Shown here: positions 20,858 to 53,622 of the stretch, in pieces
Layout: the number at the start of each line of letters is the position of its first letter
How positions within the stretch are numbered: the stretch's first letter is position 1
Source of the DNA: an uncultured Paracoccaceae bacterium
Lineage (GTDB): Bacteria > Pseudomonadota > Alphaproteobacteria > Rhodobacterales > Rhodobacteraceae
DNA length: 64,000 bases
Direction of reading: 5' to 3'
Assembly: GCA_947503935.1 (NCBI GenBank)
Contig: CANNFR010000006.1
Span: forward strand, 288,728 to 352,727
Position numbers and translations under genes: made by a program
Notes under the pieces: model-generated
The model's input: the letters and a program-made list of their open reading frames with translations, nothing else
Databases searched by the model: none
Told to the model about the DNA's origin: nothing

Positions 20858-22261
20858 CTAAAGCAACGCGGATGCCTGGGCAGCCCGCTCCCGAAGAAAA
20901 TCGCGGTGCATTGTCAACATATTAATCTCGTCGCCCGGTACTTCAGAAATCATTTCATCCACCTCAGCGAGTGCTCTCGGATAGGTCAACCACGGCGTCG
21001 TTTCGTCTGCAGACATCAAGCGACGCGCAATCGCCTTTTCGTAGTCGTGCCGTTCGTCGACGTTCATCAGTTCTGGAGCTTCGCAGTATAGCAAACGCTG
21101 TCCGAGTGTACGTAGCCGTGCATCTGCAAGCTGGCCAATCAAGGGCACGCGCTGCGGCCATTCCAAGTTGTGAAAGCGTTCCATGAGGTCATTGTCTGCA
21201 TTGCTGGCGAAACCGTCGTAAATTTGCTCCTCGACATGCTCGGACGGTTCCCGCTCCTCCCTGGACGCGAGAAGACCCGCGATCAACCGTTCCCTTAGCG
21301 CGGCATTACCCTTGACGCGCGCGGCCCGGCGCTTGAGTTCATCGAGCGCCGGATAGGCTTCACGAGTTGCCTCGGGAACATCCTCATAGGGCATAACGAT
21401 TGGAGCGGCGTTGGTGCGCATGCTCCTCAGCGGCCTGGGGCTTTGCGCCAACACGCCCGCGAGGTCCTCATCGCTTAGCGCCTCGAGGTCATCTGGATTG
21501 TTGGAGAGATCGAGGACAAACATCTCCGAGCCGTTTTCGGGATTGGTGCCGATCGCCGCTACCACCCAGGAATAGGGCCGTGTGTAGTAGAAATCGGTCA
21601 AGACGAACACGTCCTCATCGAGTGCGAAATCGGTGACTGCGGCTTTCTGCCCAAAGCGTACGAAGCCCGACCACTGCTCCGGCTCGCGCTCGGCAATGAG
21701 TCGGCACATGTGGATTGTTGCCTCCACATCCGCCATCGCGTCGTGGGCCGCGCTATGATCGAACCCGTTCGTCGGTGCCAAACGGTCAAGTTTGAAGACC
21801 GGTTTGCCGCGATCGTCGACGGGGATGTTCAATGCATCTGGCGCAAAGCGCGCAACTGCCTGGATCATCCGCAAGCTGTCGTTCCGGCAATTGCCGTTGG
21901 TGTTCGTCAAGTAGGGCGTATGCAGCGTCTTGTAGAGCGCCTGTCGCAGCAGATGCTCGTCAAAGCCGAACGAGTTATGCCCGATGAAGATCGCCGGCGA
22001 CCATTCCGTCAGCTTGCCTTTGATCGCCCGCACCATTTGATAGTGTGTCGGCAAGGACGGATCGATGAGCTGCTCGGCCGTAACACCGGTAACACGCATC
22101 GCACCGGGAGCCGGAACGACATAGGGCAGAATCTGACAGCGGATTTCGAAACGATCTACTTCTTTGAGTTCGTGGTCGGTCCTGATCGCAGCGAACTGCA
22201 AAATCTGGTCGAAGGCGGTGCGGGTCCCTGTGGTCTCTGTGTCATAGAAGACGAAGCTCAT
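20858..22261 (-). CDS. sbcB: Exodeoxyribonuclease I-like 3'-5' exonuclease
   Basis: 467 residues, close to the ~475 of E. coli ExoI. The DEDDh exonuclease domain is intact: D7/E9 in FYDTETTG, HNSFGFDEHLL near residue 96, and HDAMADVEAT near 174. The C-terminal half is the ExoI SH3-like and helical region, less conserved. It lies 20 nt downstream of an ImmA-like peptidase gene in an XRE-controlled operon rather than alone, which suggests an accessory or defence role for this copy. Confidence 0.85.
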   Translation of the reverse strand: MSFVFYDTETTGTRTAFDQILQFAAIRTDHELKEVDRFEIRCQILPYVVPAPGAMRVTGVTAEQLIDPSLPTHYQMVRAIKGKLTEWSPAIFIGHNSFGFDEHLLRQALYKTLHTPYLTNTNGNCRNDSLRMIQAVARFAPDALNIPVDDRGKPVFKLDRLAPTNGFDHSAAHDAMADVEATIHMCRLIAEREPEQWSGFVRFGQKAAVTDFALDEDVFVLTDFYYTRPYSWVVAAIGTNPENGSEMFVLDLSNNPDDLEALSDEDLAGVLAQSPRPLRSMRTNAAPIVMPYEDVPEATREAYPALDELKRRAARVKGNAALRERLIAGLLASREEREPSEHVEEQIYDGFASNADNDLMERFHNLEWPQRVPLIGQLADARLRTLGQRLLYCEAPELMNVDERHDYEKAIARRLMSADETTPWLTYPRALAEVDEMISEVPGDEINMLTMHRDFLRERAAQASALL

Positions 22262-22281: not shown

Positions 22282-22809
22282 TTAGGCGAACAGGTTTCCA
22301 AGTCGGAAGCGCATCGCCGATGCGCTGACCTTGTAATGTTTGGCTAGGGTACTGACGGCACCTTCGTCATCTATGTCGAACGGTTCGCCGTCGAGCGAGG
22401 CGGCAAGAAAGGACTCTGGCATCAGAAGCTCGGCCGCAAACAGATTGGCCTCGATCTCCATCTCGTTAACACCTTCCGCAGAGACGGTGTTACGCATCAA
22501 CATAGGGAAACCCTTGTCGACGTGGATCTCCTTGCTGATCTCGGCACGGTGAAGCTGCAAATGGCCAAGCTCGTGCGCGATCGTAAATCGCTGGCGGTTC
22601 GGGTGATGCAGGGCATTGACGCCGACGATCGGGGTGCCATCCTTTACATACACCATCCCCGACAGCTCGTCATCGAGCGGCGAAAAGCGAAGATTTGCGC
22701 CGAGTGACTTGGCGATCCGCTCGACTGGCACCGGCGCTGACGAGATGCCTTGCGCTTCCAACAAACTGAGCGCTTTTCTCCGTATTTTACTCTTGGTTTG
22801 GTGGTTCAT
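22282..22809 (-). CDS. ImmA/IrrE family metallo-endopeptidase
   Basis: 175 residues of the DUF955/ImmA family. The zinc motif H79-E-L-G-H83 (FTIAHELGHLQLH) is intact, followed by NLFAAELLMP, which contributes the third ligand region. Such peptidases cleave partner XRE repressors to derepress target genes. It overlaps the XRE gene by 4 nt and precedes the exonuclease gene. Confidence 0.9.
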   Translation of the reverse strand: MNHQTKSKIRRKALSLLEAQGISSAPVPVERIAKSLGANLRFSPLDDELSGMVYVKDGTPIVGVNALHHPNRQRFTIAHELGHLQLHRAEISKEIHVDKGFPMLMRNTVSAEGVNEMEIEANLFAAELLMPESFLAASLDGEPFDIDDEGAVSTLAKHYKVSASAMRFRLGNLFA

Positions 22810-23186
22810 TGGTCCTCCCTTCTGGAGTTTTCTCCAGAGTTCCCATGATCGTCAATCTCAAGGACGCCACCCACAAGACTGAGTACTTCCTGGCGTTGTT
22901 TATCGGTCAGACCTTCCTCCGCCAATGGTAGGTCGTTCTGTGCTCTGTGCCTACGTGATCCGGCCTGTGGCGCCAGAAGAAGATCCGCCGGCGATTCTAG
23001 CTGCAGAGATTCTGCAATCGCAAAAAGATGATGGACAAGCACTTGCTGTTTCCCACGCTCAATATTTGCAAGCGAGGCGCGTGAAATCCCAACCTGTTTG
23101 GCAAGCTGGTCCTGTGTAAGGCCCAGGCTTCCCCTCAAGCCCTTAATTCTTATACCTAAATTTCGATATATTTGCAGGGCGCTCAT
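22806..23186 (-). CDS. XRE-family helix-turn-helix regulator
   Basis: 126 residues from ATG 23186; the longer upstream reading is Cys-rich non-coding sequence. The HTH lies at residues 22-48 (GLTQDQLAKQVGISRASLANIE). It ends in an acidic, Gly-rich tail that could be the ImmA cleavage region. A sigma70-like promoter places the transcription start at or within a few bases of the ATG, so this mRNA may be leaderless. It probably represses its own operon and perhaps the divergent one. Confidence 0.88.
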   Translation of the reverse strand: MSALQIYRNLGIRIKGLRGSLGLTQDQLAKQVGISRASLANIERGKQQVLVHHLFAIAESLQLESPADLLLAPQAGSRRHRAQNDLPLAEEGLTDKQRQEVLSLVGGVLEIDDHGNSGENSRREDQ

Positions 23187-23454: not shown

Positions 23455-24591
23455 GTGAATATGCAGGCACACGTGAACTTCTTCCCGCTCGGCAATGCCG
23501 ACACCGCAAGGCTCGATCTGGCTGACGGGCGCAAGATTCTCATCGACTACGCGGCGATGCGCGACAAGGACGATGATGACGACCAACGCTGCGACCTGCC
23601 CGAGACGCTTCGGCGCGATCTCAACAAGGCTGGGCGCGACTATTTCGACACCGTATGCATCACGCACACCGATACTGACCACTGTAAGGGGTTCGGCGAA
23701 TTCTTCTGGCTCGACCACGCGGCATGCTACCAAGGCAAGGATCGGATCAAGATCAAGGAGCTCTGGGTGCCCGCTGCAGCGATCCTTGAGGAAAACCTTA
23801 AGGATGATGCGCGACTAGTCCGAGCCGAGGCGCGTCACCGCCTGCGCCAGGGCAAGGGAATTCGGGTATTCTCGAGGCCTGACCGTCTGAAAGCTTGGAT
23901 GGACGCAGAAGGTATCGACTTCGAAAGTCGCAAACATCTGATCGTCGACGCCGGCAAGCTCGTCCCCGGCTACGCTCTGTCGGGCTCGGAACGGGTCGAG
24001 TTCTTCGTGCACTGTCCGTTCGGGTGGCGGCAGGACGAAAACACCGTTGTGGACCGAAACGAAGACTCCATCGTCATGCAGGCAACCTTCATCGAAGGCG
24101 GCCACAAGACTCGGTTACTTCTCGCCTCGGACGTCAATTACGAGACGCTCTCGGCGATCGTTCAGGTGACCCGCAAACACGGCAACGAGGACCGGCTTGC
24201 CTGGGACCTGATGAAGCTCCCGCATCACTGCTCCTACAAGTCGTTGGGGCCAGAGCGCGGCGCCGACGAAACGGTTCCTGATGCTGACGTCAAATGGCTG
24301 TTTGAGAACCAGCGCCAACCGGGGAGCGACATCGTTTCACCGTCTTGGCTGATCCCGGCGAAAGGTTCGAAGGCAGACAGCGACGTCCAGCCGCCGCACC
24401 GGCAGGCAGCGAATTACCACCGCCGGATCACGGCTGCACATGACGGCGAGTTCATTGTTACGATGGAATACCCGTCAAAAAGCAATCCGAAACCCTTTGC
24501 CTACAAGATCACGGCGTTCGGTTTCGCGATCGTCCTTTCCGCACCGATGGTGGCCGGTACAGCCGCCGCGGCGTCGCCCAGGGCTGGGTAA
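23455..24591 (+). CDS. ComEC-like metallo-beta-lactamase fold hydrolase
   Basis: 378 residues from GTG 23455 (ATG 23461 is an equally good start after CGAGAGGA). The MBL motif H71-x-D73-x-D75-H76 (ITHTDTDHCKGF) is intact. LLLASDVNYETL near 224 and LMKLPHHCSYKSLG near 252 correspond to the later ligand motifs of ComEC/Rec2-type hydrolases (LPHHGS). The C terminus is hydrophobic then flexible and ends SPRAG. It is the first gene of the E2/E1/JAB - patatin operon, joined by a TAATG overlap. It may be a nuclease or phosphodiesterase; the substrate is unknown. Confidence 0.85.
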   Translation: MNMQAHVNFFPLGNADTARLDLADGRKILIDYAAMRDKDDDDDQRCDLPETLRRDLNKAGRDYFDTVCITHTDTDHCKGFGEFFWLDHAACYQGKDRIKIKELWVPAAAILEENLKDDARLVRAEARHRLRQGKGIRVFSRPDRLKAWMDAEGIDFESRKHLIVDAGKLVPGYALSGSERVEFFVHCPFGWRQDENTVVDRNEDSIVMQATFIEGGHKTRLLLASDVNYETLSAIVQVTRKHGNEDRLAWDLMKLPHHCSYKSLGPERGADETVPDADVKWLFENQRQPGSDIVSPSWLIPAKGSKADSDVQPPHRQAANYHRRITAAHDGEFIVTMEYPSKSNPKPFAYKITAFGFAIVLSAPMVAGTAAAASPRAG

Positions 24592-26876
24592 TGGACATCG
24601 AAGCCTGGCTGTCTGCATCGTACGGAAAGGTGATAGCGGCCGGGGACCTTACGTTCCCGGCCGCGGTTTCGTTCGCGCGGTTTGTGGATCGTCACGCCGC
24701 GGATGTTGCTACCGTCACCGAGTTGCGCCAGGGGGCGGCCGGCGAATTGGTCGAACTGACCTTCAGGACCGGCAGGCCCCAGCAGAGCGTAATCCCGATC
24801 AAACGCACTGAGCGGCTCGGGATCCGCTTTGGCGAAGGTGACACCATGCCCTTCGTCTATGTACTGCGTAGCGACTTTCCAGACACCGCGCATCAGAATC
24901 TCACCGCAGAAGGCGCGCCGCGCGCGATCTGCATCGACGATCGTAGTTGGGCCGAGGCCCGCCTCACATGGACGCCGGCCGAACTCGTTCATCGCATCCT
25001 CACCTGGTTCCGACGCGCCGCCGAGGGAAACCTGCATGATGCCCGCCAGCCGGTCGATCCTCAGATGTTCGGGACGGGATACAGCCTGATCATGTCCCGC
25101 GCGTTGATCAAGCATGCCAGCAAACATGACCTCATCGCTATCCCGGACGACACCGGCACATTGATGCGCGTGATCCCACGTTCCGAACTGAGCGGCGCGG
25201 TCAAAGCACTGCCGCTGACGGTCGCCGCCTTCAGTGTGCCTCCCGAAGAAATGGTTCGATTGTCTTTTGCCCCGGGAAACCTCGCTAGTTTAGCTGACAT
25301 GTTTGCAGCGCGTGGGATCGACCTTTTCGCCGACCTTCGCGCGCGCTTTGGCGCCTGGCTGGATGATGCCAAAACCAATGCCGCGCGGATAAACTCTTGT
25401 CTTGCGGTAATCGTCGAGATGCCAATCACGGCTCCTGACGGCGCACAGCAGGGGACCGATCTGCGGGCCTTCGTGACCGCCAAGAAGGTCGGCGACATCG
25501 CGGTTGCACTTGGAGTTGCCCACAAGACGGCGAGCAAGGACCAGGGTGGCGCCGCAGGCTATGTGAGCGCGCTAGTTGGCGGTTCGATTGATGAGGCTGA
25601 GCTCGGCGGACTGGCGATGCTTCCCGTCGAAGTCCATGCGACCTTTGACCGTGCCCTGGCGACGCAGATTGCTGGCCGTGCGGTCGAGGATGATCGCCGC
25701 GCGGTGATTGTTGGCGGTGGCGCAATTGGCGCGCATGTCGCTCCGTGTCTTGCTCGAGAGGGGCGTTTCCGCTGGACTGTGATCGACGATGACGTCTTGC
25801 TGCCGCACAACCTTGCCCGGCATATCGCGTTCGCGGGCAACGTAACGCAGCGCAAGTCCGATATCCTAGCCGGCGCGGTTGCAAGTATCCTCGACGACGA
25901 GAGCTCTGTTGCAGAAGCCATCACCGCCCGGGTTGGTTCTGATGGGCACCGGAATGAGGATGTCGACCGTGCGCTTGAAGAGGCAGATCTCATCATTGAC
26001 GCGTCCGCTTCGCTGTTGGCGGAGCGTTACCTCTCCGATCATCAAGCGGGGGCCCGCCGGATCAGCATCTTCTTCAGCCCTGCGGGCGATGCCGCTGTAC
26101 TCCTCGCAGAGCCAAAGGATCGCAGCGTCACGCTGCGCGATTTGGAAGCGCAGTATCTTGGCCACGTCGTTCACGAGGAGGCCCTCGCGGGTCACCTGGC
26201 GACGCCGGCACGCACAGTCGCCTACACCGGCGCCTGCAGGGCCATCACTAGCCTAATCCCGGAATCACGCGTCATGGCGCTCAGCGGCCTCGTCGCAGAA
26301 GGGCTCGGCCAAGCAGCCAATGCCGATGAGGGTATTGTCCGCATCTGGTCGCTCGGTGAGGGCGGTGCGGTGCGCAGCTTCTCCTATCCCGCGGAGGCTG
26401 TGCGACGGTTCGATGTTGACGGCTGGCAAGTCGCCCTCGACGACGGCCTTCGCAGGCGTGTCGCGACGATGCGGGAAGAGCGGCTGCCAAACGAGACTGG
26501 CGGCATCATGTTCGGCGTGGTCGATATCCCGGCCCGGCGAATTCACTTGGCCGGTGCCGCTCCAGCGCCCACTGACAGCGTTGCGTCACCGGGCGGGTTC
26601 ACCCGCGGAACCGACGGTGTTCAGGAGACGATTGACCGTGTGATGACTGAGACGCAGGGGCAGATGAGATATGTTGGTGAGTGGCACTCGCACCCGCCCC
26701 GTGCCGGAGTAATGCCGAGCGTCACCGATCTTATCCAGATCAACTGGCTCGCTTCGATTTTTGACATGGACACTTTGCCCGGCTTGATGCTGATCGCCGG
26801 CGAGAACGAACTCGCTGTCGTCTTCATGCGCCAAGAGGATGTTCCAACCTTGCCCGCAGCGGAAACAGGCCGATGA
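24591..26876 (+). CDS. E2-E1-JAB triple fusion (ubiquitin-like conjugation and deconjugation)
   Basis: 761 residues with three modules. Residues ~10-150 resemble a bacterial E2 with candidate catalytic C114 (RAICIDDRSW, then a WTPAELVHRILTWF helix). Residues ~365-600 are a ThiF/E1 adenylation domain (GGGAIGAHV at 375-383, TVIDDDVLLPHNLARH at 396-411) with candidate transfer cysteine C549 (TGACRAITSLIP). Residues ~615-750 are a JAB/JAMM isopeptidase: E635, H699-x-H701 (GEWHSHPP), S710-x2-D713. All catalytic residues appear present. In type II CBASS these functions are split between Cap2 (E2-E1) and Cap3 (JAB). The middle region, 150-360, is unassigned. Confidence 0.85.
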   Translation: MDIEAWLSASYGKVIAAGDLTFPAAVSFARFVDRHAADVATVTELRQGAAGELVELTFRTGRPQQSVIPIKRTERLGIRFGEGDTMPFVYVLRSDFPDTAHQNLTAEGAPRAICIDDRSWAEARLTWTPAELVHRILTWFRRAAEGNLHDARQPVDPQMFGTGYSLIMSRALIKHASKHDLIAIPDDTGTLMRVIPRSELSGAVKALPLTVAAFSVPPEEMVRLSFAPGNLASLADMFAARGIDLFADLRARFGAWLDDAKTNAARINSCLAVIVEMPITAPDGAQQGTDLRAFVTAKKVGDIAVALGVAHKTASKDQGGAAGYVSALVGGSIDEAELGGLAMLPVEVHATFDRALATQIAGRAVEDDRRAVIVGGGAIGAHVAPCLAREGRFRWTVIDDDVLLPHNLARHIAFAGNVTQRKSDILAGAVASILDDESSVAEAITARVGSDGHRNEDVDRALEEADLIIDASASLLAERYLSDHQAGARRISIFFSPAGDAAVLLAEPKDRSVTLRDLEAQYLGHVVHEEALAGHLATPARTVAYTGACRAITSLIPESRVMALSGLVAEGLGQAANADEGIVRIWSLGEGGAVRSFSYPAEAVRRFDVDGWQVALDDGLRRRVATMREERLPNETGGIMFGVVDIPARRIHLAGAAPAPTDSVASPGGFTRGTDGVQETIDRVMTETQGQMRYVGEWHSHPPRAGVMPSVTDLIQINWLASIFDMDTLPGLMLIAGENELAVVFMRQEDVPTLPAAETGR

Positions 26877-28093
26877 GCGAACCAGCCATTGGCCTCTCAC
26901 TGTCCGGTGGCGGATCACGTGCCATCGCGTTTCATCTCGGATGCCTGCGAGCGCTGCACGATCTGGGAATTCTCGATGAGGTGAAGGTTGTCTCCACCGT
27001 ATCGGGTGGCAGCGTCATCGGTGCACTTTACGCCGCCAAGGACGAGCCGTTCCCGGCTTTCGAGAGAAAGGTGCGTGCTTTTCTCGCGCGCGGACTGGTT
27101 CGTCCGGCTTTGCGCAAGACGATCACGACCACAGAAGGTCTTCGCGCGGCATATTGTGCTGTGCTGCTGGGCGCGTTCAACCTCGCGATCGTGGCGGTCG
27201 CGGCTGGGCCACGACTGATTGCAAGGCTGCTGCCACCTGCGGCGAGAAAGACTTGGAACGTCGAAAACCTGCGAGCACCGCTACCGCGTTTTGCGAGCCG
27301 GACGACAATCTTGCGGCGGGTGTTCGATGAAGACGTCTTTCATGGTCAGAGACTTTGCGACCTGCCTGCGAAGCGCCCTTTATTGATTATCAATGCCGCC
27401 GACCTGCGCACCGGTTCGGCGTTCTACTTCTCGCGCGAAAAGTCAGGATCTTGGCGACTTGGTGATCTGGCCGGGTCCGCGACCACGCTTGCTCATGCAG
27501 TGACGGCTTCTGCGGCATATCCACTGCTTTTGCCTGCGCTTGACGAGCGTCTCGCGTTTAACAAGCCAGACGGGTCTCGGCGTGAGGAACACGTGACTCT
27601 CACTGACGGAGGGGCTTACGACAATCTCGGCCTTGCACCGCTTTGGCCCGACCGTGACGCGTCGGTCAGCCTCAACGTCTCCGGTGTCGACACAATCATC
27701 TGTTGTCGTGCCGGCTATGGCCTGCGTTACGACCCACCCAGCCAATTCTTCGTAGCGCGGCTGACAAGCACCTTTGCCTGCATCTTTGATAGGGCGCAGA
27801 ACGCTGGCATAAAGCGTCTGTTCGATTTAAAGGCGGCGGGACGGATCAACGGCTTCTTGATACCGTTCCTAGGTCAGGATGACTCGCGTCTTGCCTGCGC
27901 GCCACCTGATCTCGTTTCTCGGGAGGAGGCCCATGGATACCCGACCGACTTTGCGGCTATGCCAGAAGAGTGGATTGAGAAACTCAGCAGGCGTGGAGAA
28001 CAATTGACCCGCGCATTGGTCACCGAACACATGCCAGAGCTGGTTTCAGGTTCAATTGAAGCAACTGCAGAACAGATGAAAGCCGGCTCTTGA
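26873..28093 (+). CDS. Patatin-like phospholipase
   Basis: 406 residues. The oxyanion loop SGGGSRAIAFHLG (11-23), nucleophile motif STVSGGS (Ser44, in a cPLA2-like SGGS form instead of GxSxG) and the DGG motif with Asp245 (LTDGGAYDNLG) give a complete Ser-Asp dyad. A hydrophobic stretch near 93-112 may help membrane contact. It overlaps the E2-E1-JAB gene by 4 nt, so it is its translational partner. Patatin proteins are membrane-degrading effectors in several anti-phage systems; effector status here is inferred. Confidence 0.85.
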   Translation: MSEPAIGLSLSGGGSRAIAFHLGCLRALHDLGILDEVKVVSTVSGGSVIGALYAAKDEPFPAFERKVRAFLARGLVRPALRKTITTTEGLRAAYCAVLLGAFNLAIVAVAAGPRLIARLLPPAARKTWNVENLRAPLPRFASRTTILRRVFDEDVFHGQRLCDLPAKRPLLIINAADLRTGSAFYFSREKSGSWRLGDLAGSATTLAHAVTASAAYPLLLPALDERLAFNKPDGSRREEHVTLTDGGAYDNLGLAPLWPDRDASVSLNVSGVDTIICCRAGYGLRYDPPSQFFVARLTSTFACIFDRAQNAGIKRLFDLKAAGRINGFLIPFLGQDDSRLACAPPDLVSREEAHGYPTDFAAMPEEWIEKLSRRGEQLTRALVTEHMPELVSGSIEATAEQMKAGS

Positions 28094-28388: not shown

Positions 28389-29027
28389 CTACAGAACCTG
28401 AATATTCCAGGGAGCCATGACTGGACCCAACAACGACTTCGTCAGCTTGGGCGCTGCTGAACCTGCGGATAGCTTGGTTAGGATCACGCGGTCATAGATC
28501 GCAACGCAGAGCTGCTCGGTAAACCGACTTGAGTAGAGCATGCCACCAACATCGGGCATCTCCTTGTAAATAAACTCAGAAAAGTACTGGCCTGCTTGAT
28601 GGTCTGAGTAGCGGATCACATCGGTTGGCACGCCGAAGCGCACGGCATTCCCTGCGGTCAGGTCGAGTAGCGTCAGGGTTGCTCCCGGCGCGTTGGAAAA
28701 ATTGACCGCGGAACGCGTGTCGTAGCTTGGTTTGCGGAGTATGCGTGCGGGTGTGAGATCGAGACTGTCTCGAATGATGGCCTCGTAAGAGGCCGTTGCC
28801 AGGTTGATCGCGCCATAGAGCAGACCAAAGCGAGCCTTTCCGGTTGTTGTCGCCAGAGGGCTGAAGCGACTGGATCCGTACCCGAAGCTCAGCGGATTGA
28901 CCGCATAGGTCGTTTGCATGACGCGTACGAAATTAGTGATGGGTCTCGTGGTTTTCAGGCCAGAGAGCAACCCAGCAACCGCGCCTTTCTGAGTTGACGT
29001 CAAAGATACCAAGCGAAATGCGCTCAC
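28389..29027 (-). CDS. RES-domain toxin (NAD-degrading type)
   Basis: 212 residues with the RES-domain layout: VRVMQTTYAVNPLSFGYGSSRFSPL near residue 34-58, LYGAINLATASYEAIIRD at 70-86 (Glu82) and a later Ser region (GMLYSSRFTEQL). RES toxins split NAD+ to nicotinamide and ADP-ribose or its phosphate. It overlaps the antitoxin-type gene by 4 nt and comes second in the operon, the usual order for these pairs. Confidence 0.85.
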   Translation of the reverse strand: MSAFRLVSLTSTQKGAVAGLLSGLKTTRPITNFVRVMQTTYAVNPLSFGYGSSRFSPLATTTGKARFGLLYGAINLATASYEAIIRDSLDLTPARILRKPSYDTRSAVNFSNAPGATLTLLDLTAGNAVRFGVPTDVIRYSDHQAGQYFSEFIYKEMPDVGGMLYSSRFTEQLCVAIYDRVILTKLSAGSAAPKLTKSLLGPVMAPWNIQVL

Positions 29028-29839
29028 CCATGATCCCCGTAGTCAAAGCCCTCCTTGGCGCGCTTGATCTCAGCAAGACACGCGGTCAATTCCGAAGGTT
29101 TTGCGGCTTTGATCTTATCGATCGGGCGCGGATGCATGGCCCCGTAGAACACTGCGGAAGTCAGGAACGTCCAAGCCGCATAGTGATCCTCCTCAAAGAA
29201 CGCCAAAACCTCGGGTATGCCTTTCATGACGAGTCTGCCGTCAAACTGCTCTTTGGGTACGTGCAGCGCATTTTTGAAGAGTTTGAAGCCGATCAACTCG
29301 TTGGATTTTATGCGCCGCGTGATCGTTGATTTTGCTACATCCAGTTCCTGGGCGGCCTGATCCGCTGACCAGAATTCGTCATTGAAATCCTCATCCTCGA
29401 ACTCCGGCAGCGCGGCATTTTCTTTAAAAGAAACAAGCGATGCCAAATCCTGACCCACGATCGCAGGCTCCACCTCGACGCCGAGTGAAACGGCCCCGCT
29501 ATCCATGTCCAATGTCAGATCGACGGCAATTTCTGGATCGCTGATCTGCTCGAGTAAGGCCACAAGGTCCTTATCCAGAGCACGCTTCGGCCCACTCTTA
29601 ACTCGCACTCGTCGCTCCATACTGCCCTGTCCGTATTTGGGCAGTGCAACCTCCTTGACCTTGAAGCGTCCATTCTTGTCGTCCTGCCACAAGCGCAAAC
29701 GGTCGATACGTTGACCCAAAAGGTCGCCCACACCAGGCAATTGGCCCTGTGCTGCCGCGCCTGCGGCAAGCTCCTGCATATAATTTCCGAGCACTTCTAG
29801 GCTTCGTGTGGGATCGGTTGCCATCTTCGGATCAGTCAT
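29024..29839 (-). CDS. Antitoxin of the RES toxin, with DNA-binding and ParS/MbcA-type C-terminal domain
   Basis: 271 residues, larger than the usual ~150. Residues 156-195 form an excisionase-like helix-turn-helix (FWSADQAAQELDVAKSTITRRI), and the C-terminal part (205-265, AWTFLTSAVFYGAMHPRPIDKI) matches the toxin-binding Xre/MbcA/ParS fold. The N-terminal 150 residues are of unknown fold. It probably neutralises the RES protein and autoregulates through the dyad at 29878-29899. Confidence 0.75.
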   Translation of the reverse strand: MTDPKMATDPTRSLEVLGNYMQELAAGAAAQGQLPGVGDLLGQRIDRLRLWQDDKNGRFKVKEVALPKYGQGSMERRVRVKSGPKRALDKDLVALLEQISDPEIAVDLTLDMDSGAVSLGVEVEPAIVGQDLASLVSFKENAALPEFEDEDFNDEFWSADQAAQELDVAKSTITRRIKSNELIGFKLFKNALHVPKEQFDGRLVMKGIPEVLAFFEEDHYAAWTFLTSAVFYGAMHPRPIDKIKAAKPSELTACLAEIKRAKEGFDYGDHG

Positions 29840-30065: not shown

Positions 30066-31256
30066 ATGCCGGGGATGATGCGACTACTTGCTACAGCCGA
30101 CATTCATCTAGGTTCTCCGATCAGGTCGGTCGCGCTGCGAAACCCTGATCTTGGGGATCGTTTGAAGCAAGCCAGTCGCGACACATTCATACGGATCATA
30201 GAGCTGGCTATCTCCGAGAAGGTCGACACGCTCGTATTGGCGGGAGACATTTTTGACAACGGATACCCAGATCTCCGATCTCGCGCTTTCCTGGTAGCGC
30301 AGTTATCTCGCGCCGCAGAGGCCGGTGTGCCAACGGTCTTGGTCCGGGGTAACCACGACGCGTTGCTCGACCACAGTGCCCACGGAGAGCTTGGCCCTAA
30401 CATCCATCTTCTGCACAAAGAAATGCCAACTGTCGAAATCGGCGATGCCGCCTTTCACGGGCTTTCGTTCGATGCAGCTCATGTCGGAAAGAGCTTCCTC
30501 CCCGACTACCCGAAACCGGTGCCGGACAAGCGAAATGTCGGCCTTATGCATACCTCGCTCGATGGGGCTTCCGGTCATGACCCGTATGCGCCCTGTGCCG
30601 CAGTCGACCTGATGGCGCATGGCTTCGACCTTTGGTGCCTCGGTCACATCCATGCGCCTTTCGAGCGTTGGGATGACCAGGTCTTGGCGGTCATGCCGGG
30701 TATCCCGCAACCGCGCCATTTCGGTGAGCGTCAAGGCGGGACAGTTACGCTTGTCGAAATGGGAGAAGGCGCACCCATAGTCGAGCGGCGCGACGTTGCG
30801 CAGTTGGTCTTTGCCGAGTTGGAATTGGACCTCCACGACTCCGGCGATCAGCAGGATATGGTTGCTACCCTTAGAGACGGGTTCTTATCGGCGCAGCTCC
30901 CGAAAAAGGATGCCGCCGTCCGGCTGAGGGCAACGAGGTCAAGGCAGAGCGGCGCGTTTGTCACTGAGCTCGCAGCGGAAGTGCTGGACGACGTTGATCG
31001 GGTCTTTCTGGATAACGTCGAAGTCGTGCCGCCCTCCCGTACGCTCAAGACCGAGACAGATGACCTCGTTCGCCTGATGCGCGCTGAAATGGCGGAGGAC
31101 GGCTTCAGGCAAGCCGCCCTGCAACAACTCGATGAGGTCCGAACCGCGCTGCCGAATGAAATCGCTGCAGAACTGGAAGATCACGCTCTGGACGCATTGC
31201 TAGAGGACGCCATCGACGAGGTGATGCTTGCGCTTCATGCGGAGCGCGCGGAATGA
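30066..31256 (+). CDS. YhaO/SbcD-like metallophosphoesterase nuclease
   Basis: 396 residues. All five metallophosphoesterase motifs are visible: ADIHLGS (D12, H14), AGDIFDNG (D61), RGNHD (N96, H97), a later GLMHTSL and LGHIHAPF. The C-terminal half is the capping region. It is shaped like the nuclease half of the YhaO/YhaN or SbcD/SbcC complexes that process DNA ends. It overlaps the ATPase gene by 4 nt. The start is uncertain: ATG codons at 30075 and 30078 are alternatives. Confidence 0.9.
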   Translation: MPGMMRLLATADIHLGSPIRSVALRNPDLGDRLKQASRDTFIRIIELAISEKVDTLVLAGDIFDNGYPDLRSRAFLVAQLSRAAEAGVPTVLVRGNHDALLDHSAHGELGPNIHLLHKEMPTVEIGDAAFHGLSFDAAHVGKSFLPDYPKPVPDKRNVGLMHTSLDGASGHDPYAPCAAVDLMAHGFDLWCLGHIHAPFERWDDQVLAVMPGIPQPRHFGERQGGTVTLVEMGEGAPIVERRDVAQLVFAELELDLHDSGDQQDMVATLRDGFLSAQLPKKDAAVRLRATRSRQSGAFVTELAAEVLDDVDRVFLDNVEVVPPSRTLKTETDDLVRLMRAEMAEDGFRQAALQQLDEVRTALPNEIAAELEDHALDALLEDAIDEVMLALHAERAE

Positions 31257-34200
31257 GGCTGAATGCGCTGCATCTGATCCGCTATGGCAATTTCGAAGAC
31301 GCTGAGATCGTCTTTCCGGTGCCCGCGCGTGACACCCCTGATGTAACCGTCGTTTACGGGCCCAACGAGGCCGGAAAGTCGACCGCGTTTCATGCGTTAC
31401 TAGACATTTTCTTTGGCTTTCGGGCTGGTGCGCATCCCTACGCATTCCGGTTCGAGCGAAGCGACTTGCTTGTGGGGGCCGACCTTGACCTGTCCGGCCG
31501 CGGGGCAACTGTCCTGAGGCGCAACAGCAAGCGGTTGAAATCCTTGCTGGACATGCACAATCGGCCAGTCGCCGACGCGATCCTCGGGAGCGCGTTGCAC
31601 GGGTTAACGCGGGACGAATTCGAGGAGCGGTTCTTGCTGGATGAAAGGGGCCTGCGGGACGGCGGCGAACGGATTGCCAGTGCGAAGGGCGACCTTGGCC
31701 AACTTTTGCATGCGGGCGTCTCGGGCCTGACTGGCATTTCGGAGACGCTGAACACGCTTTCGGAGCGCGCCGAAAAATTTCACAAAAAACATGGCCGTGC
31801 CACGGAGCTGAAACTGGTGAGCGACCGCCTGAAACAAATCGGTCGCGAGCTTCGAGCGGATCGGCTGACCTCCGAACGGGAACGAACTCTTCGTCAAGAC
31901 CGTGACCAGAAGGCCGCACTGTTCGACGCGGAAAACACGGCGCTGGTCACCGCGCAGAAACGTCGTCTTGCCGCTACGGCGGCCAGTACTTGGTTCGACC
32001 GAACCCAGGAGATGGAACGACTCGCCGAGGCCCTGAAGGACTATCCGAGTGGCCCGGACCTGCCCCGGCATGCGGCCGAGCGCGTGGCGGCACTGGTGGA
32101 GAAAGTCTCCTCGCTCGAGGCCAGGATCACCGAGGCAGACGATGACGTCGCCGGCCTGGACCAGATCATTGAGGAGAACCCTGCTGACACGCTCTCCCCG
32201 GCGCTGAACGCCGAGTTGGAACGCCTGGATCAGATGACGGTCGATGGCGCCCCGTTGATGGACCGCGCCACGACGGCGCGCGCGGATCTCGACCGTCGCA
32301 CTGCAGACCGGGATGCTCTCGCCATGGAGATATCGACGGCGCGGGCGCGGCTTTCGGTGTCCGGCACTGCGGTGGCGGATCTCTTCCTCGACACGGCGGA
32401 GTTGGAAGAGATCGCCGAGGCTGTCGAGGCGTGCCGCATGGCCAGAGAGGCGTTGAACACGGCCAAGGCCGTCGCCGATGCAGCAAGAGCGCGAGAGGGC
32501 GAGGCGCCTAGCGAACCGCAAGATCTGGCGCTCCTGCGCGACGCATTCGAGGCCTGGAGGACGGTTTCGGACCTGACCACGTTCGAAACAGAGCGGGAAC
32601 AAACCCTCGCGCGCCTAACCAAGGCTGCCGCCGACTTGCCTGCGGACTGGACTGGCTTGGTCGACGCCGGCCTACCCGCACTCGAAACGCTTGAGAAAGC
32701 CGCGCGGGAGTGGTCGGACTTATCCTCGGACATCGCCGCAGCCAAGAGCAACATCGAGGAACGCTCGAAAGAATTCGAGGATGCCACAGCCGATCTCTCG
32801 GCTTTGCAGGCCGCGCCCGAAGCGGTGGATGCCGCAATGACCGAGGAAACCCGCCGCCACCGCGACCTGGCTTGGACACGCCACCGCGACGACCTGTCCG
32901 ATCCCTCCGCCGACCAATTCGAGGCAGCGATGCGCGCGGACGACAGCGCACGCGCCCATTTCGTTGCGGGGGCGGAGATCCGCCAGCGGCGACTTGAAGC
33001 GCAGAGGCGGGAAAAGACAGCGAAGGCGCGCTTCGAAACCGCTGAGGCGTGGCTGGCAGACCTGATCGATCGCCGCGAGAGTTTGTTAGAGGTTCATTCA
33101 AGGCTATCAGCAAGGCTCGGTCTGGAAGCAGGCACCATTCCAGCGGCTTTTGGACCACGCCGCCAGACCCTTTCAGCGGCGTCCAACGCCGCTGCCGATC
33201 ACTCGAACGCGCAAGCAGCGTTGGATACCCGCCGCCACCGCGAGGAAGCCTTGCGCACCGAACTGATGGAAGCGGCCCGCGCCTTGGATCTCGGCGGAGG
33301 TAAGGGCGATATGGCGGCCCGGGTGCAAAGAGTTCTGACGCTGGAAGAAAGTGATCGCAAGGCCTGGAGTAGATGGAGGGACAGCCAGAAGGCCATCGAC
33401 AAACTGGACGACGACGCGCTGGTCAAGAAGGACGATCTAAAGCGGGCCGAGCTCGATTTCGAACGGTTGACTTCTTCTTTGCCGCTACCGGATCGCTCGG
33501 TAGAGGGGGTCCGGACGGCTCTTCCACAGTTGCGGAACCTACTTCGGCTGCACACAGATCATCAGCGTCTCGATGAACGAATCGAGGCACTGCAGCGGGC
33601 GATTTCGGCGTTGTCAGAGGGGGCTGAACGGCTGGTGAAGATTCTTGGTGCGACAGAGGATCAGGGCGGGCGGGACCCCATTCAGACCATCGACCAGGCG
33701 CGCATACGTGTGGCGGCAGCAACGCGCGCCGACGAAAAACGTGGTGACGCCGAGTCGCGCAGGGACAAGCTTACGGCGGCACGTCTTCGCCATAACACTG
33801 ATCTTGGGACCGCAAGGAACGAGCTAGATGACCGCTTCAAGGGTCAAGACCAAGACGACAATCTAGCGCCGAGCGACCGGATAGCACGGCTCGTTGAGCG
33901 GGATCGGCTTCGCGCCGAGCGCCTGACTGCGGATCGGGATAGGCAGCAGGCCATCGTTGGCGTCGACAAGGACCTCTTCGGCGAGGAACTCGACCTATTG
34001 CCGGACGCCTCTCGCGGACCTGTTCTCGAACAGCAGGTGCAAGACGCGCAAGACAGCCGCGACGCAGCGCGCGATGCAGCACGTGAGGCCGAGCGTTTGT
34101 ACCGCGAAGCATTCGACGCCGCCGACCGTAGCGATCTGGCCACCGAACAGGCGACGCTACTGGAGACGCTCCGCAATGGCGGTCGCCAGGCGGTCGTTGC

Positions 34201-34663
34201 GCGGCTGGGTGTGCTGGCGGCCCGCGGCGCGCTTCGTCGTCTGGCGGAGGAACGACGCAGCGACATGCTGCGCGATGTCGAGGCGGCCTTTGTGACAATG
34301 ACCAAACCCAAATGGCGCGGCGTCGAGGTTTGGAGCCAGGTCGAAGGCGAAAAGCTGGTCGGCATCGACGCCGACGGGGACAAGGTTCCGGTCGATAAGA
34401 TGTCGACGGGGACTATGGGCCAGCTCTACTTCGCCTTGCGGCTAGCGGGGTATCGCAGCTTTGCGTGTGACCTCGGACCCCTTCCGATGATCCTCGACGA
34501 CATCATGGAAACGTTCGACGACACACGGGCGCGGGCCGCATTGCAACTGTGCGCCGAGATAGGGGCAAGTGGACAGGCAATCCTCTTCACGCACCACGCG
34601 CACCTGGTTGAGATGGCCCAGACCGCAGTTCCGGGGGTGGCCATTGTGGAGATGCCAACCTGA
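31253..34663 (+). CDS. YhaN/SbcC-like AAA ATPase with long coiled coil
   Basis: 1136 residues. Walker A GPNEAGKST is at 36-44, followed by FFGFRAGAHPYAFRFERSDL typical of YhaN-type ATPases. Residues ~180-1000 are mostly heptad-rich coiled coil, broken near the middle. The C-terminal lobe carries the signature region STGTMGQLYFALRLAGY and Walker B LPMILDDIMETFDD, ending with a switch His (LFTHH). There is no zinc-hook CxxC. Partner of the preceding nuclease; acts on DNA ends by analogy. Confidence 0.9.
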   Translation: MRLNALHLIRYGNFEDAEIVFPVPARDTPDVTVVYGPNEAGKSTAFHALLDIFFGFRAGAHPYAFRFERSDLLVGADLDLSGRGATVLRRNSKRLKSLLDMHNRPVADAILGSALHGLTRDEFEERFLLDERGLRDGGERIASAKGDLGQLLHAGVSGLTGISETLNTLSERAEKFHKKHGRATELKLVSDRLKQIGRELRADRLTSERERTLRQDRDQKAALFDAENTALVTAQKRRLAATAASTWFDRTQEMERLAEALKDYPSGPDLPRHAAERVAALVEKVSSLEARITEADDDVAGLDQIIEENPADTLSPALNAELERLDQMTVDGAPLMDRATTARADLDRRTADRDALAMEISTARARLSVSGTAVADLFLDTAELEEIAEAVEACRMAREALNTAKAVADAARAREGEAPSEPQDLALLRDAFEAWRTVSDLTTFETEREQTLARLTKAAADLPADWTGLVDAGLPALETLEKAAREWSDLSSDIAAAKSNIEERSKEFEDATADLSALQAAPEAVDAAMTEETRRHRDLAWTRHRDDLSDPSADQFEAAMRADDSARAHFVAGAEIRQRRLEAQRREKTAKARFETAEAWLADLIDRRESLLEVHSRLSARLGLEAGTIPAAFGPRRQTLSAASNAAADHSNAQAALDTRRHREEALRTELMEAARALDLGGGKGDMAARVQRVLTLEESDRKAWSRWRDSQKAIDKLDDDALVKKDDLKRAELDFERLTSSLPLPDRSVEGVRTALPQLRNLLRLHTDHQRLDERIEALQRAISALSEGAERLVKILGATEDQGGRDPIQTIDQARIRVAAATRADEKRGDAESRRDKLTAARLRHNTDLGTARNELDDRFKGQDQDDNLAPSDRIARLVERDRLRAERLTADRDRQQAIVGVDKDLFGEELDLLPDASRGPVLEQQVQDAQDSRDAARDAAREAERLYREAFDAADRSDLATEQATLLETLRNGGRQAVVARLGVLAARGALRRLAEERRSDMLRDVEAAFVTMTKPKWRGVEVWSQVEGEKLVGIDADGDKVPVDKMSTGTMGQLYFALRLAGYRSFACDLGPLPMILDDIMETFDDTRARAALQLCAEIGASGQAILFTHHAHLVEMAQTAVPGVAIVEMPT

Positions 34664-51552: not shown

Positions 51553-52746
51553 TCATGCGGCCTGCCTCTGGGGTGGGGCACGTGATCGCGGAACCTGTCC
51601 GCGCTGGAATATCTCGATGATGCGCATGGGCCCGCCACATTCTGGGCATGGTTCTCGCAGTGTCAGCGGGACGATCTCGGTACTAGGCGTGTCTTCTGGC
51701 GTGGCCATTTGCGCGCCGAGCAATGTACGGATCATCGCGATGTTGGCTTTGCGCTTTGCGGAAGCCAGAAAGCCGTAATGGCGGATGCGGTGGAACCCAT
51801 CAGGGAGAACGTGGATCAAGTATCGGCGGATGAACTCATTTGTCGCCAGCCGCATGACCTTCATACGATCGCCGCGCTTGATCCGATAGTCTTTCCATCG
51901 GAACGCCACGGTGTTGGCATCGGCGCTGACGAGACGGCTGTTTGAGATCGCGATCCGGTGGGTGTAGCGGCTGAGATAGGCCAGCACAGCCTTGGGACCG
52001 CCGAAGGGCGGTTTGGCGTAAACCACCCATTCGGTCTTGCGGAAGGGCGCAAGCCAATCGGCGAATGCCTGCGTCTCTGCCAACCCGCCCATATCCCCGA
52101 AGAAGGCCAATTTGTCCGCATGGTGCAGCGCTACCAGCCCGTCGACGAACAACCGTCGAAACAGCCGCGATAAAACCCGCACATGCAGAAAGAACCCTGG
52201 TTTGCATGCGACCCACTTGGCTCCGTCCGGGGACAGGCCACCACCAGGAACGATCATGTGGATGTGCGGATGGTGGGTCATTGCCGACCCCCAGGTATGC
52301 AACACGCTGGTCATACCGACCCGCGCGCCCATACGCTTGGGATCTGCGGCAATAGTCGCCAGCGTTTCAGCCGATGCTTTGAACAGCAGTCCATAGACCG
52401 CCCGTTTGTTCCAATAGGCGATCTGCGCGATCTCGGCTGGCAGCGTGAAGACCAGGTGGAAGTATTCCACCGGCAATAGGTCTTCGGCGCGGGCTGCCAT
52501 CCAGTCGCGCGCCGCTGGCCGCTGGCACTTCGGGCAGTGGCGGTTCTTGCAACTGTTGTAGGCGATGTGCTGGTGCTTACATTTGGTGCAAGCCGCCACA
52601 TGCCCACCGAGCGCCTCGGTCCGGCAGGCTTCAATGGACGACATGACCTTGAGTTGCCCGAGGCTCAAATGCCCTGCATTGGCCCGCCGGAAGGCAGGTC
52701 CATGATCACGGAAGATGTCGGCAACCTCCAGCGCGTGCTGCCGCAC
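51553..52746 (-). CDS. IS91-family transposase
   Basis: 397 residues. An N-terminal zinc-finger region (CTKCKHQHIAYNSCKNRHCPKCQ), a HUH metal motif (HPHIHMIVPGGG) and the catalytic tyrosine region (YLSRYTHRIAISN) are present, so it looks complete. A second Cys pair lies near the C terminus (CPECGGPM). Rolling-circle-type transposase. Confidence 0.93.
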   Translation of the reverse strand: MRQHALEVADIFRDHGPAFRRANAGHLSLGQLKVMSSIEACRTEALGGHVAACTKCKHQHIAYNSCKNRHCPKCQRPAARDWMAARAEDLLPVEYFHLVFTLPAEIAQIAYWNKRAVYGLLFKASAETLATIAADPKRMGARVGMTSVLHTWGSAMTHHPHIHMIVPGGGLSPDGAKWVACKPGFFLHVRVLSRLFRRLFVDGLVALHHADKLAFFGDMGGLAETQAFADWLAPFRKTEWVVYAKPPFGGPKAVLAYLSRYTHRIAISNSRLVSADANTVAFRWKDYRIKRGDRMKVMRLATNEFIRRYLIHVLPDGFHRIRHYGFLASAKRKANIAMIRTLLGAQMATPEDTPSTEIVPLTLREPCPECGGPMRIIEIFQRGQVPRSRAPPQRQAA

Positions 52747-52761
52747 GCCGCCGGGCCCGCG

Positions 52762-53622
52762 TTAGGTCACATCCTGGATGTGCTCAAACGGGCTGGACAC
52801 ATTGCGCAACGTCTTGGTTGCCACATGGGTGTATCGCGCCGTCGTGGTCAGCTTGGCGTGGCCGAGGAGAACCTGGATTACCCGTACATCCGTATCGGCC
52901 TCCAACAGGTGCGTTGCGAAGCTGTGCCGGAGTGAATGCAGAGTTGCGGGCTTTTTGATCCCCGCCATGCGCTTGGCTGAGTTGAAGGCACGATTGAGCG
53001 AGCGCGGCGACAAGGGTTCGACCCGGCTCTGCCCAGGAAACAGCCAACCCTGTGGACGGGCCTCGCGCCAGTAGTCGCGTAACAGCACGAGCAGAGACGG
53101 TGAGAGCATCACGTCGCGATCCTTGCCGCCCTTGCCGCGTTCGACATGGATCAGCATACGGTCGCTGTCGATGTCCCGCACTTTGAGATTGGTGACCTCG
53201 GATGCCCGCAGGCCCCCGCCATATCCGATGCCAAGTGCCGCTCTTTACTTGAGACCCGGTCCCGGAGCCGCCGACAAAATCGCCGAGACCTCTTCGAAGC
53301 TGAGCACAATCGGTAACTTCCGCGGCTCGGTGCGGAACTGCATGTACTTCTTCATGTCCTCGCGGTTGCAGGTCATGCCGAAAAAGAACCGCAGTGCTGT
53401 GATCCGGGAATTGTAGACCGACGGCGTGACCTCGGTATCGGTCATGTGAAGCTGATAGGCGCGCAGCTCATCTGGGGTCGCCGTATCCGGCGCTCGCCCC
53501 AGAAAGGCTGTGAAATCCTTCAGCGCCCGGATATGCGCCTTCTGCGACGTCTCCGCCATTCCGCGGATCCGCATATCTTCAATCATCCGCGCACGCAGCG
53601 GGCTCATCTTCTCCTGTGCCAT
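52762..53622 (-). pseudogene. Tyrosine recombinase with in-frame stop
   Basis: The N-terminal part (53622-53248; SAM-like DNA-binding domain) ends at TAA (53247-53245) after GPGLK, and the same frame continues RAALGIGYGGGLRASEVTNL through to 52762. A Tyr codon at that point would restore a 286-residue integrase. The catalytic Arg (LRASEV), HSLRHSFATHLL, LLGHAKLTTTARYTHV (nucleophile Tyr) are all intact, so only the single nonsense change inactivates it. Confidence 0.85.

Follow-up and report, generated by a model that had tools for sequence, protein, structure and literature searches.

The 64,000-nucleotide stretch analysed here (the window; positions 288,728 to 352,727 of contig CANNFR010000006.1, from an uncultured Paracoccaceae bacterium) contains an operon of three overlapping genes, which encode a metallo-β-lactamase (MBL)-fold protein, a single polypeptide with ubiquitin-conjugating (E2), ubiquitin-activating (E1) and JAB modules, and a patatin-like phospholipase (Table 1). 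The TAATG and ATGA overlaps reported in an initial annotation of the window, which was made from the sequence alone, are borne out by the coordinates of the open reading frames (ORFs). The same annotation took the operon for the ubiquitin arm of a cyclic-oligonucleotide-based antiphage signalling system (CBASS) without its cyclase; its CBASS-like logic is upheld, but the operon belongs to a system of its own that NCBI already names. NCBIfam 20.0 models entitled 'anti-phage 6A-MBL system' match both core genes far above their cut-offs (NF058524, 433.2 bits for the MBL protein with a cut-off of 220; NF058523, 647.2 bits for the fused enzyme with a cut-off of 320), and the enzyme gene directly follows the MBL gene. 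Judged by these family models, the operon is of the 6A-MBL type and not a new kind of system. The order MBL, E2-E1-JAB, patatin is the same in eight of eight close relatives (L003-L010), which indicates that the arrangement is not due to chance and answers the question of co-conservation raised by the annotation. The annotation had also pointed to earlier surveys of E2-E1-JAB proteins beside MBL genes, correctly so: row 6a of Iyer and co-workers (2006; PMC1779556), in the text available of that survey, describes a triple-module protein that occurs mostly in operons adjoining a metallo-β-lactamase. The name 6A-MBL was not found in the open-licence literature, nor was any description there of this variant, with a patatin gene and flanking CapH/CapP-like genes.

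The ORF of the MBL gene encodes 378 residues from GTG 23455 and 376 from ATG 23461. GTG 23455 is probably not the real start, since homologues most often have 376 residues (62 of 165, with 375 residues in another 47). The metal-binding motif HTDTDH (His71, Asp73, Asp75 and His76 in the 378-residue numbering) is present, together with Asp226 and His257/His258. No MBL match was obtained in Pfam and no solved relative was found by sequence at an E value of 0.01. The fold is of the ComEC type, which makes a phosphodiesterase or nuclease activity likely.

The fused enzyme carries the Pfam domains Prok-E2_A (8.5e-21), ThiF (8.4e-13) and Prok-JAB (5.6e-08), as had been predicted for this one polypeptide. 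The candidate catalytic residues Cys114 (E2), Cys549 (E1) and Glu635/His699/His701/Ser710/Asp713 (JAB) are unchanged throughout the 22 aligned enzymes, whose identities to the window's protein are 17-56%, and so are Gly375/Gly377/Gly380/Asp399/Arg410/Lys422. In fold comparison the enzyme is matched best by the Cap2-CdnD entries 7to3 and 7tqd; its E1 part matches 7tsq (Cap2 with the C-terminus of CdnD02), and BubCD is also among the fold matches.

The initial annotation missed two features of the locus: a C-terminal tail with a conserved glycine in the MBL protein and a CapH/CapP-like gene pair upstream of the operon. In an AlphaFold2 model of the MBL protein, the mean predicted local distance difference test (pLDDT) score is 91.1 and falls below 50 only at residues 363-378, a tail predicted to be disordered that ends in ASPRAG. 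The final Gly is the C-terminal residue in 159 of 165 different close homologues, pooled from the top 120 of 4421 hits in one search and the top 120 of 4235 in another, and the other six carry K, WR, K, KK, MAKK or NDS behind this Gly. A further search with the MBL of an E. coli plasmid gave an E. coli-type set (best 120 of 2973); 115 of these proteins are full length, P0173, P0231, P0244, P0251 and P0261 having been dropped as shorter than 360 residues. By a search pattern that fixed R and G, 107 of the 115 have RAG near the end; 21 stop at RAG and 86 continue for 2-7 residues, with 62 different extensions. The residue between R and G, where the pattern permitted other letters, is Ala in 107 of 107, and Pro precedes the motif in 106 of 107; the extension positions have an entropy of 2.8-3.7 bits. 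The precursors of ubiquitin, SUMO and Atg8 are likewise built with a fixed Gly and then a hypervariable short extension.

For a comparison in genomic context, we assembled 42 loci (the window, L003-L010, L049-L078 and L097-L099). This sample is biased, as the protein of the window itself was the query that retrieved L003-L010 and 15 of 249 plasmid records were picked for diversity, and it contains near-copies (L057/L058; L070/L075/L077; L004-L009/L064). The MBL end could be read beside the enzyme gene in 38 loci, that is without L058 (partial), L076 (truncated beside an insertion sequence, IS), L078 (degraded) and L098 (frameshifted). It is Gly in 25 of these, including L055 with RAG plus RNG, and in the other 13 RAG, RSG, HG, GFG or GYG lies, by eye, 1-6 residues from the end. 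The corresponding column of alignments A1, A3 and A5 is Gly in 14/14, 38/38 and 32/32 sequences, respectively. In the control sets, two of 20 other MBL-domain ORFs of the window's genome (one of 17 with a metal-motif signature) and six of 91 annotated non-MBL coding sequences (CDS) in 13 plasmid loci end in Gly. The higher rate among crude ORFs (53 of 393) is explained by the inclusion of spurious ORFs of GC-rich DNA. The tail motif (RAG, HG or GFG) tracks the clades of the enzyme tree (HG in L050, L051, L052, L057 and L097; GFG in L061, L062 and L099), as would be expected if tail and E1 co-evolved, although shared descent alone predicts the same.

The third gene is variable. The window's patatin (Pfam Patatin, 1.3e-18) retains the GGGSR motif, Ser44 in SGGS and Asp245 in DGG, and has a hydrophobic insert from about residue 89. 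A patatin gene lies directly behind the enzyme gene in 24 of the 42 loci, and a transmembrane (TM)-type protein is found in the remaining 18, behind the enzyme gene in 14 and upstream in four (L070, L075, L077 and L098); L060 is convergent and L078 degraded. By plain hydropathy, at least two TM-like windows are present in 17 of the 18 TM-type proteins (L078 has one), compared with two of 63 other annotated CDS. On an enzyme tree of 38 tips (23 patatin and 15 TM), from which L058, L063, L078 and L098 were omitted and in which L060 forms a long branch, the third-gene label requires four changes, all four forced by the starred branches, and is clustered (four changes versus 12 when shuffled); L069 (TM) and L074 (patatin) are sisters. 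By this reconstruction the third position of the operon is filled by membrane-type proteins that can replace one another, with at least four switches. In L049 and L069 a second MBL gene is placed between the enzyme and TM genes, a sub-form of the operon (L049:10202-12129 and L069:6318-7825).

The suggestion in the annotation that a patatin partner is less described agrees with the searches: the words patatin and phospholipase are absent from the text of the 2006 survey available for a word search (PMC1779556), no NCBIfam model scores over its cut-off for the window's patatin and ten other third genes, and PADLOC gives no match for the three patatins and two TM proteins tested. Identification of the window's patatin as CapV was considered and is unsupported, as it has no PADLOC match. 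The patatin is a candidate effector, which would likely act by damaging the membrane.

According to the available part of PMC10097602, Cap2 binds cGAS in a thioester through the C-terminal Gly of the latter and brings about its conjugation, and the last residue is Gly or Ala in 1,583 cGAS proteins whose operons contain full-length Cap2 and Cap3. The MBL protein has the corresponding feature, a flexible tail with an end Gly or with Gly and a removable extension. We propose, with a probability of about 0.66, that the MBL protein is a tag conjugated through its tail Gly, that the JAB domain detaches and trims it and that the patatin is the likely effector; the figure is held at this level by the alignment of MBL ends in deep clades, discussed below. 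The steps that we infer run as follows. The fused E1-E2 would charge the C-terminal Gly of the MBL protein and attach the protein to targets, and the JAB domain would release it, as well as removing the extension from those MBL proteins that are synthesized with one. Conjugation would prime the MBL activity, and this activity or its product would trigger the third gene, the patatin phospholipase damaging the membrane with phage defence as the outcome. The MBL would thus take the place of the CD-NTase (cGAS/DncV-like nucleotidyltransferase) of type II CBASS, the enzyme itself being the ubiquitin-like tag, and an operon with such a Gly-tailed MBL could do without a separate ubiquitin-like gene. 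Strong sequence evidence and a published precedent underlie the view of the MBL as a matured and conjugated modifier, and it is probably the MBL itself that E1/E2 conjugates and JAB trims. The fuller scheme, in which a whole MBL enzyme serves as the modifier in a cyclase-free immunity, made in many lineages as a precursor with a disposable extension behind PRAG, trimmed and recycled by JAB, conjugated by E1-E2 and coupled to exchangeable membrane-killing effectors of patatin or TM type, we consider somewhat better than an even prospect.

Several observations weigh against this proposal. Eight of the 115 E. coli-type MBLs are without RxG (three end in PHG, two in PHG plus two residues, one in KAG plus three and one in KPGGFA, and one is without such a tail), and R and G were fixed in the pattern that gave the count of 107. 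In the deep clades with HG, GFG and GYG tails the last Gly does not always fall in the column aligned as Gly (L051, L052 and L061 are examples), so that homology of the ends is less sure there. The annotation had taken Cys114 and Cys549 for candidate catalytic residues; their invariance agrees with this, but in the structure model of the enzyme Cys549 lies inside a loop (541-554) with pLDDT below 50 and Cys114 within a stretch of mean pLDDT 67, so that the model places both cysteines with low confidence. Matches of the MBL protein in PADLOC to RTasMBL (7.1e-15), LmuA (1.3e-11) and Avs1a (2.4e-05) show that such MBLs also serve E1-E2-free systems. The TM protein of L070, L075 and L077 is linked only weakly to the operon: no gene follows that of the enzyme there, and the TM protein is encoded upstream on the far side of a WYL gene. 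Finally, the MBL would have to signal to effectors that are unrelated to one another.

The same tail evidence would also fit if the MBL were used in the manner of Bil, with phage structural proteins as its main conjugation targets and virion assembly disturbed through its bulk or through local cleavage, the patatin or TM protein being only loosely associated. The lack of any gene behind the enzyme gene in the E. coli-type loci would suit such a use, as would the cGAS conjugates to phage proteins that are seen in CBASS too (available part of PMC10097602). Against it, all 42 loci examined have a membrane-type partner nearby, mostly directly behind the enzyme gene and in the window joined to it by the ATGA-type overlap, and this partner has been swapped between unrelated families; we regard a Bil-like use as unlikely.

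Alternatively, the MBL end might be kept for protein stability, for docking on the fused enzyme or for translation of the downstream gene. The MBL stop codon does overlap or adjoin the next start in many loci, and MBL conjugates are something that we infer. Against this, all four Gly, four Ala and five Arg codons occur among 22 distinct RAG/RSG tails, synonymous variety which implies that the constraint acts on the protein; the 62 different extensions part the motif from the stop codon in the E. coli-type sister clade with PRAG unchanged; and the patatins of 6A-MBL operons, whose genes likewise overlap or abut those next to them, end in Gly in none of 20 cases. Gene overlap or a Shine-Dalgarno sequence as the cause of the tail is weakened by the codon variety and by the variable extensions before the stop codon, and the retention of the end for purposes other than conjugation appears quite improbable.

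Upstream of the operon and divergent from it lie a helix-turn-helix (HTH) gene of the XRE type and an M78 peptidase gene. The best PADLOC match of the former is capH (2.7e-11; Pfam HTH_3, 9.6e-12), with a homologue of 85% identity in L003, and that of the 175-residue peptidase is capP (2e-33, over 150 of 242 positions). No NCBIfam model scores over its cut-off for either gene. By these best matches, the pairing of an HTH repressor and an M78 peptidase beside an immune operon, as in CapH+CapP, is found in the window. Both genes have kin in L003; L064 has an annotated HTH and ImmA/IrrE pair, and L097 has an M78 gene plus a putatively HTH-like ORF. Seven of ten tested loci have WYL genes in the regulator position (L010, L049, L051, L054, L066, L067 and L075), those of L066 and L075 being already annotated as such. 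The divergent regulators are putatively CapH/CapP-like or of the WYL class, CapW being a candidate identity for the WYL genes. According to the available part of PMC13373217, CapH+CapP and CapW respond to DNA damage; they are found beside CBASS and next to 219 of 544 Bub operons.

Table 1. Coordinates of the operon, the MBL tail and the divergent upstream genes in the window
Feature	Position	Strand	Remarks
ImmA/IrrE (M78) peptidase, CapP-like	22282-22809	-	Peptidase_M78 1.4e-25
XRE-type HTH protein, candidate CapH-like repressor	22806-23186	-	126 residues from ATG; ORF extends to 23351
MBL-fold gene	23455-24591	+	ORF from GTG 23455; ATG 23461 likelier start
Codons of MBL tail, residues 363-378 (...ASPRAG)	24541-24588	+	Proposed conjugation tail, ends in conserved Gly
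E2-E1-JAB fusion gene	24591-26876	+	761 residues; TAATG overlap with MBL gene
Patatin-like phospholipase gene	26873-28093	+	406 residues; ATGA overlap with E2-E1-JAB gene

Other genes in the surroundings are noted briefly. An Exonuclease I-like gene (20858-22261) lies directly behind the CapP-like gene; it was considered as a part of the system and rejected, because among 39 loci only L003 has one besides the window. A 73-residue DUF2188 protein is encoded between the regulators and the MBL gene in L064 (L064:3581-3802); ORFs of the same size occupy this position in L005 and L007, and the window has none. Past the operon, a RES-domain protein (Pfam, 1.9e-10) and an upstream 271-residue partner with overlapping ends (28389-29839) form what we take to be a RES/Xre-type toxin-antitoxin pair. 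Overlapping metallophosphatase and long AAA (SMC-like) genes follow at 30066-34663, 2 kb past the operon, an SbcD/SbcC-like pair with weak PADLOC matches only. At 51553-53622 an IS91-type transposase (Y2_Tnp and a zinc-binding domain) stands by two ORFs that are halves of a tyrosine recombinase; together these are likely to be the remains of a mobile element.

The system is patchily distributed. Within the family, 12 of 394 genomes encode the enzyme with a score over the cut-off, as do four of 385 in the class and six of 398 in the phylum, the window's genome being counted each time; the phylum search matched 387 of the 398 genomes through other ThiF-type proteins, and the six over the cut-off were counted. 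The MBL scores over its cut-off in nine of 295 family genomes, all nine within the 12 enzyme-positive ones. Among 72,556 plasmid records, 249 contain a relative at 1e-30. Of 5,426 E. coli genomes, 31 have the E. coli form, and the enzyme matches none of 50,697 phage records at 1e-20. The annotated neighbours include the defence genes AbiE in L064 and type I restriction-modification in L074, and DUF1788/DUF1819 genes in L067, presumably of the brxA/brxB type of bacteriophage exclusion (BREX) systems. Core genes are broken in four of the 42 loci (an IS inside the enzyme gene of L063, the truncated MBL of L076, the degraded operon of L078 and the frameshifted MBL of L098), as a costly system might lead one to expect.

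A role in phage protection is suggested by the family name given by NCBI. That the operon serves mainly as a DNA-damage or stress-response module might be argued from the CapP/CapH best matches and the WYL neighbours, classes responsive to DNA damage, and the same question is open for related Bub operons (available part of PMC13373217), but it is very improbable in view of that anti-phage name, of the adjoining defence genes in L064 and L074 with DUF1788/DUF1819 in L067 and of the patchy spread in the family and on plasmids.

If the proposal is correct, 6A-MBL would be the second case, after the CD-NTases, of bacteria using a signalling enzyme itself as the tag, and one in which tag maturation is visible in the sequence. 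Bacterial E1-E2 priming would then be a general module into which a Gly-tailed sensor enzyme is plugged and whose membrane effector is exchanged. The question of the substrate of E1-E2-JAB proteins where no ubiquitin is encoded becomes testable by the deletion of one residue, and the variable extension behind PRAG provides a natural assay of JAB processing.

Among known proteins and systems, the 6A-MBL protein differs from the MBL domain of ComEC in having no membrane channel part and in its Gly-ended tail. The likeness to Bil and Bub lies in E1, E2 and JAB-type machinery near WYL or CapH/CapP regulators (available part of PMC13373217), and the difference in that no separate ubiquitin-like gene stands among the three genes of the window or immediately next to them; the flanks tested show other Pfam families or none, distant β-grasp genes elsewhere not having been searched for. 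The core genes, their order and their adjacency are the same as in 6A-MBL (NF058523 and NF058524; row 6a of PMC1779556). The 2006 survey, in its available text, usually gives two genes and does not mention the MBL tail; the window adds the patatin behind and the CapH/CapP-like pair ahead.

With type II CBASS the operon shares E2-E1 plus JAB chemistry, Cap2 as the best fold match of its enzyme, a Gly-ended partner enzyme, an effector of the patatin type and regulators of the CapH/CapP or WYL (CapW) class. As the annotation had noted, no CD-NTase is visible: there is none among the three operon genes, and the SMODS model PF18144 has no match in the window's genome, the one genome covered by this search (many neighbours in the plasmid tables are labelled hypothetical). 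The MBL and the fused enzyme occur together in Pseudomonadota, a cyanobacterium (L072) and Abditibacteriota (L071), and this pairing across phyla, with the lack of SMODS matches in the window's genome, led us to reject a CBASS remnant left by cyclase loss. In contrast to type II CBASS, in which the effector may be CapV, the counterparts of Cap2 and Cap3 are fused in one 761-residue chain and the MBL gene occupies the cyclase's place in the operon; the partner enzyme with a Gly or Ala C-terminus that characterizes type II CBASS is here the MBL instead of a CD-NTase.
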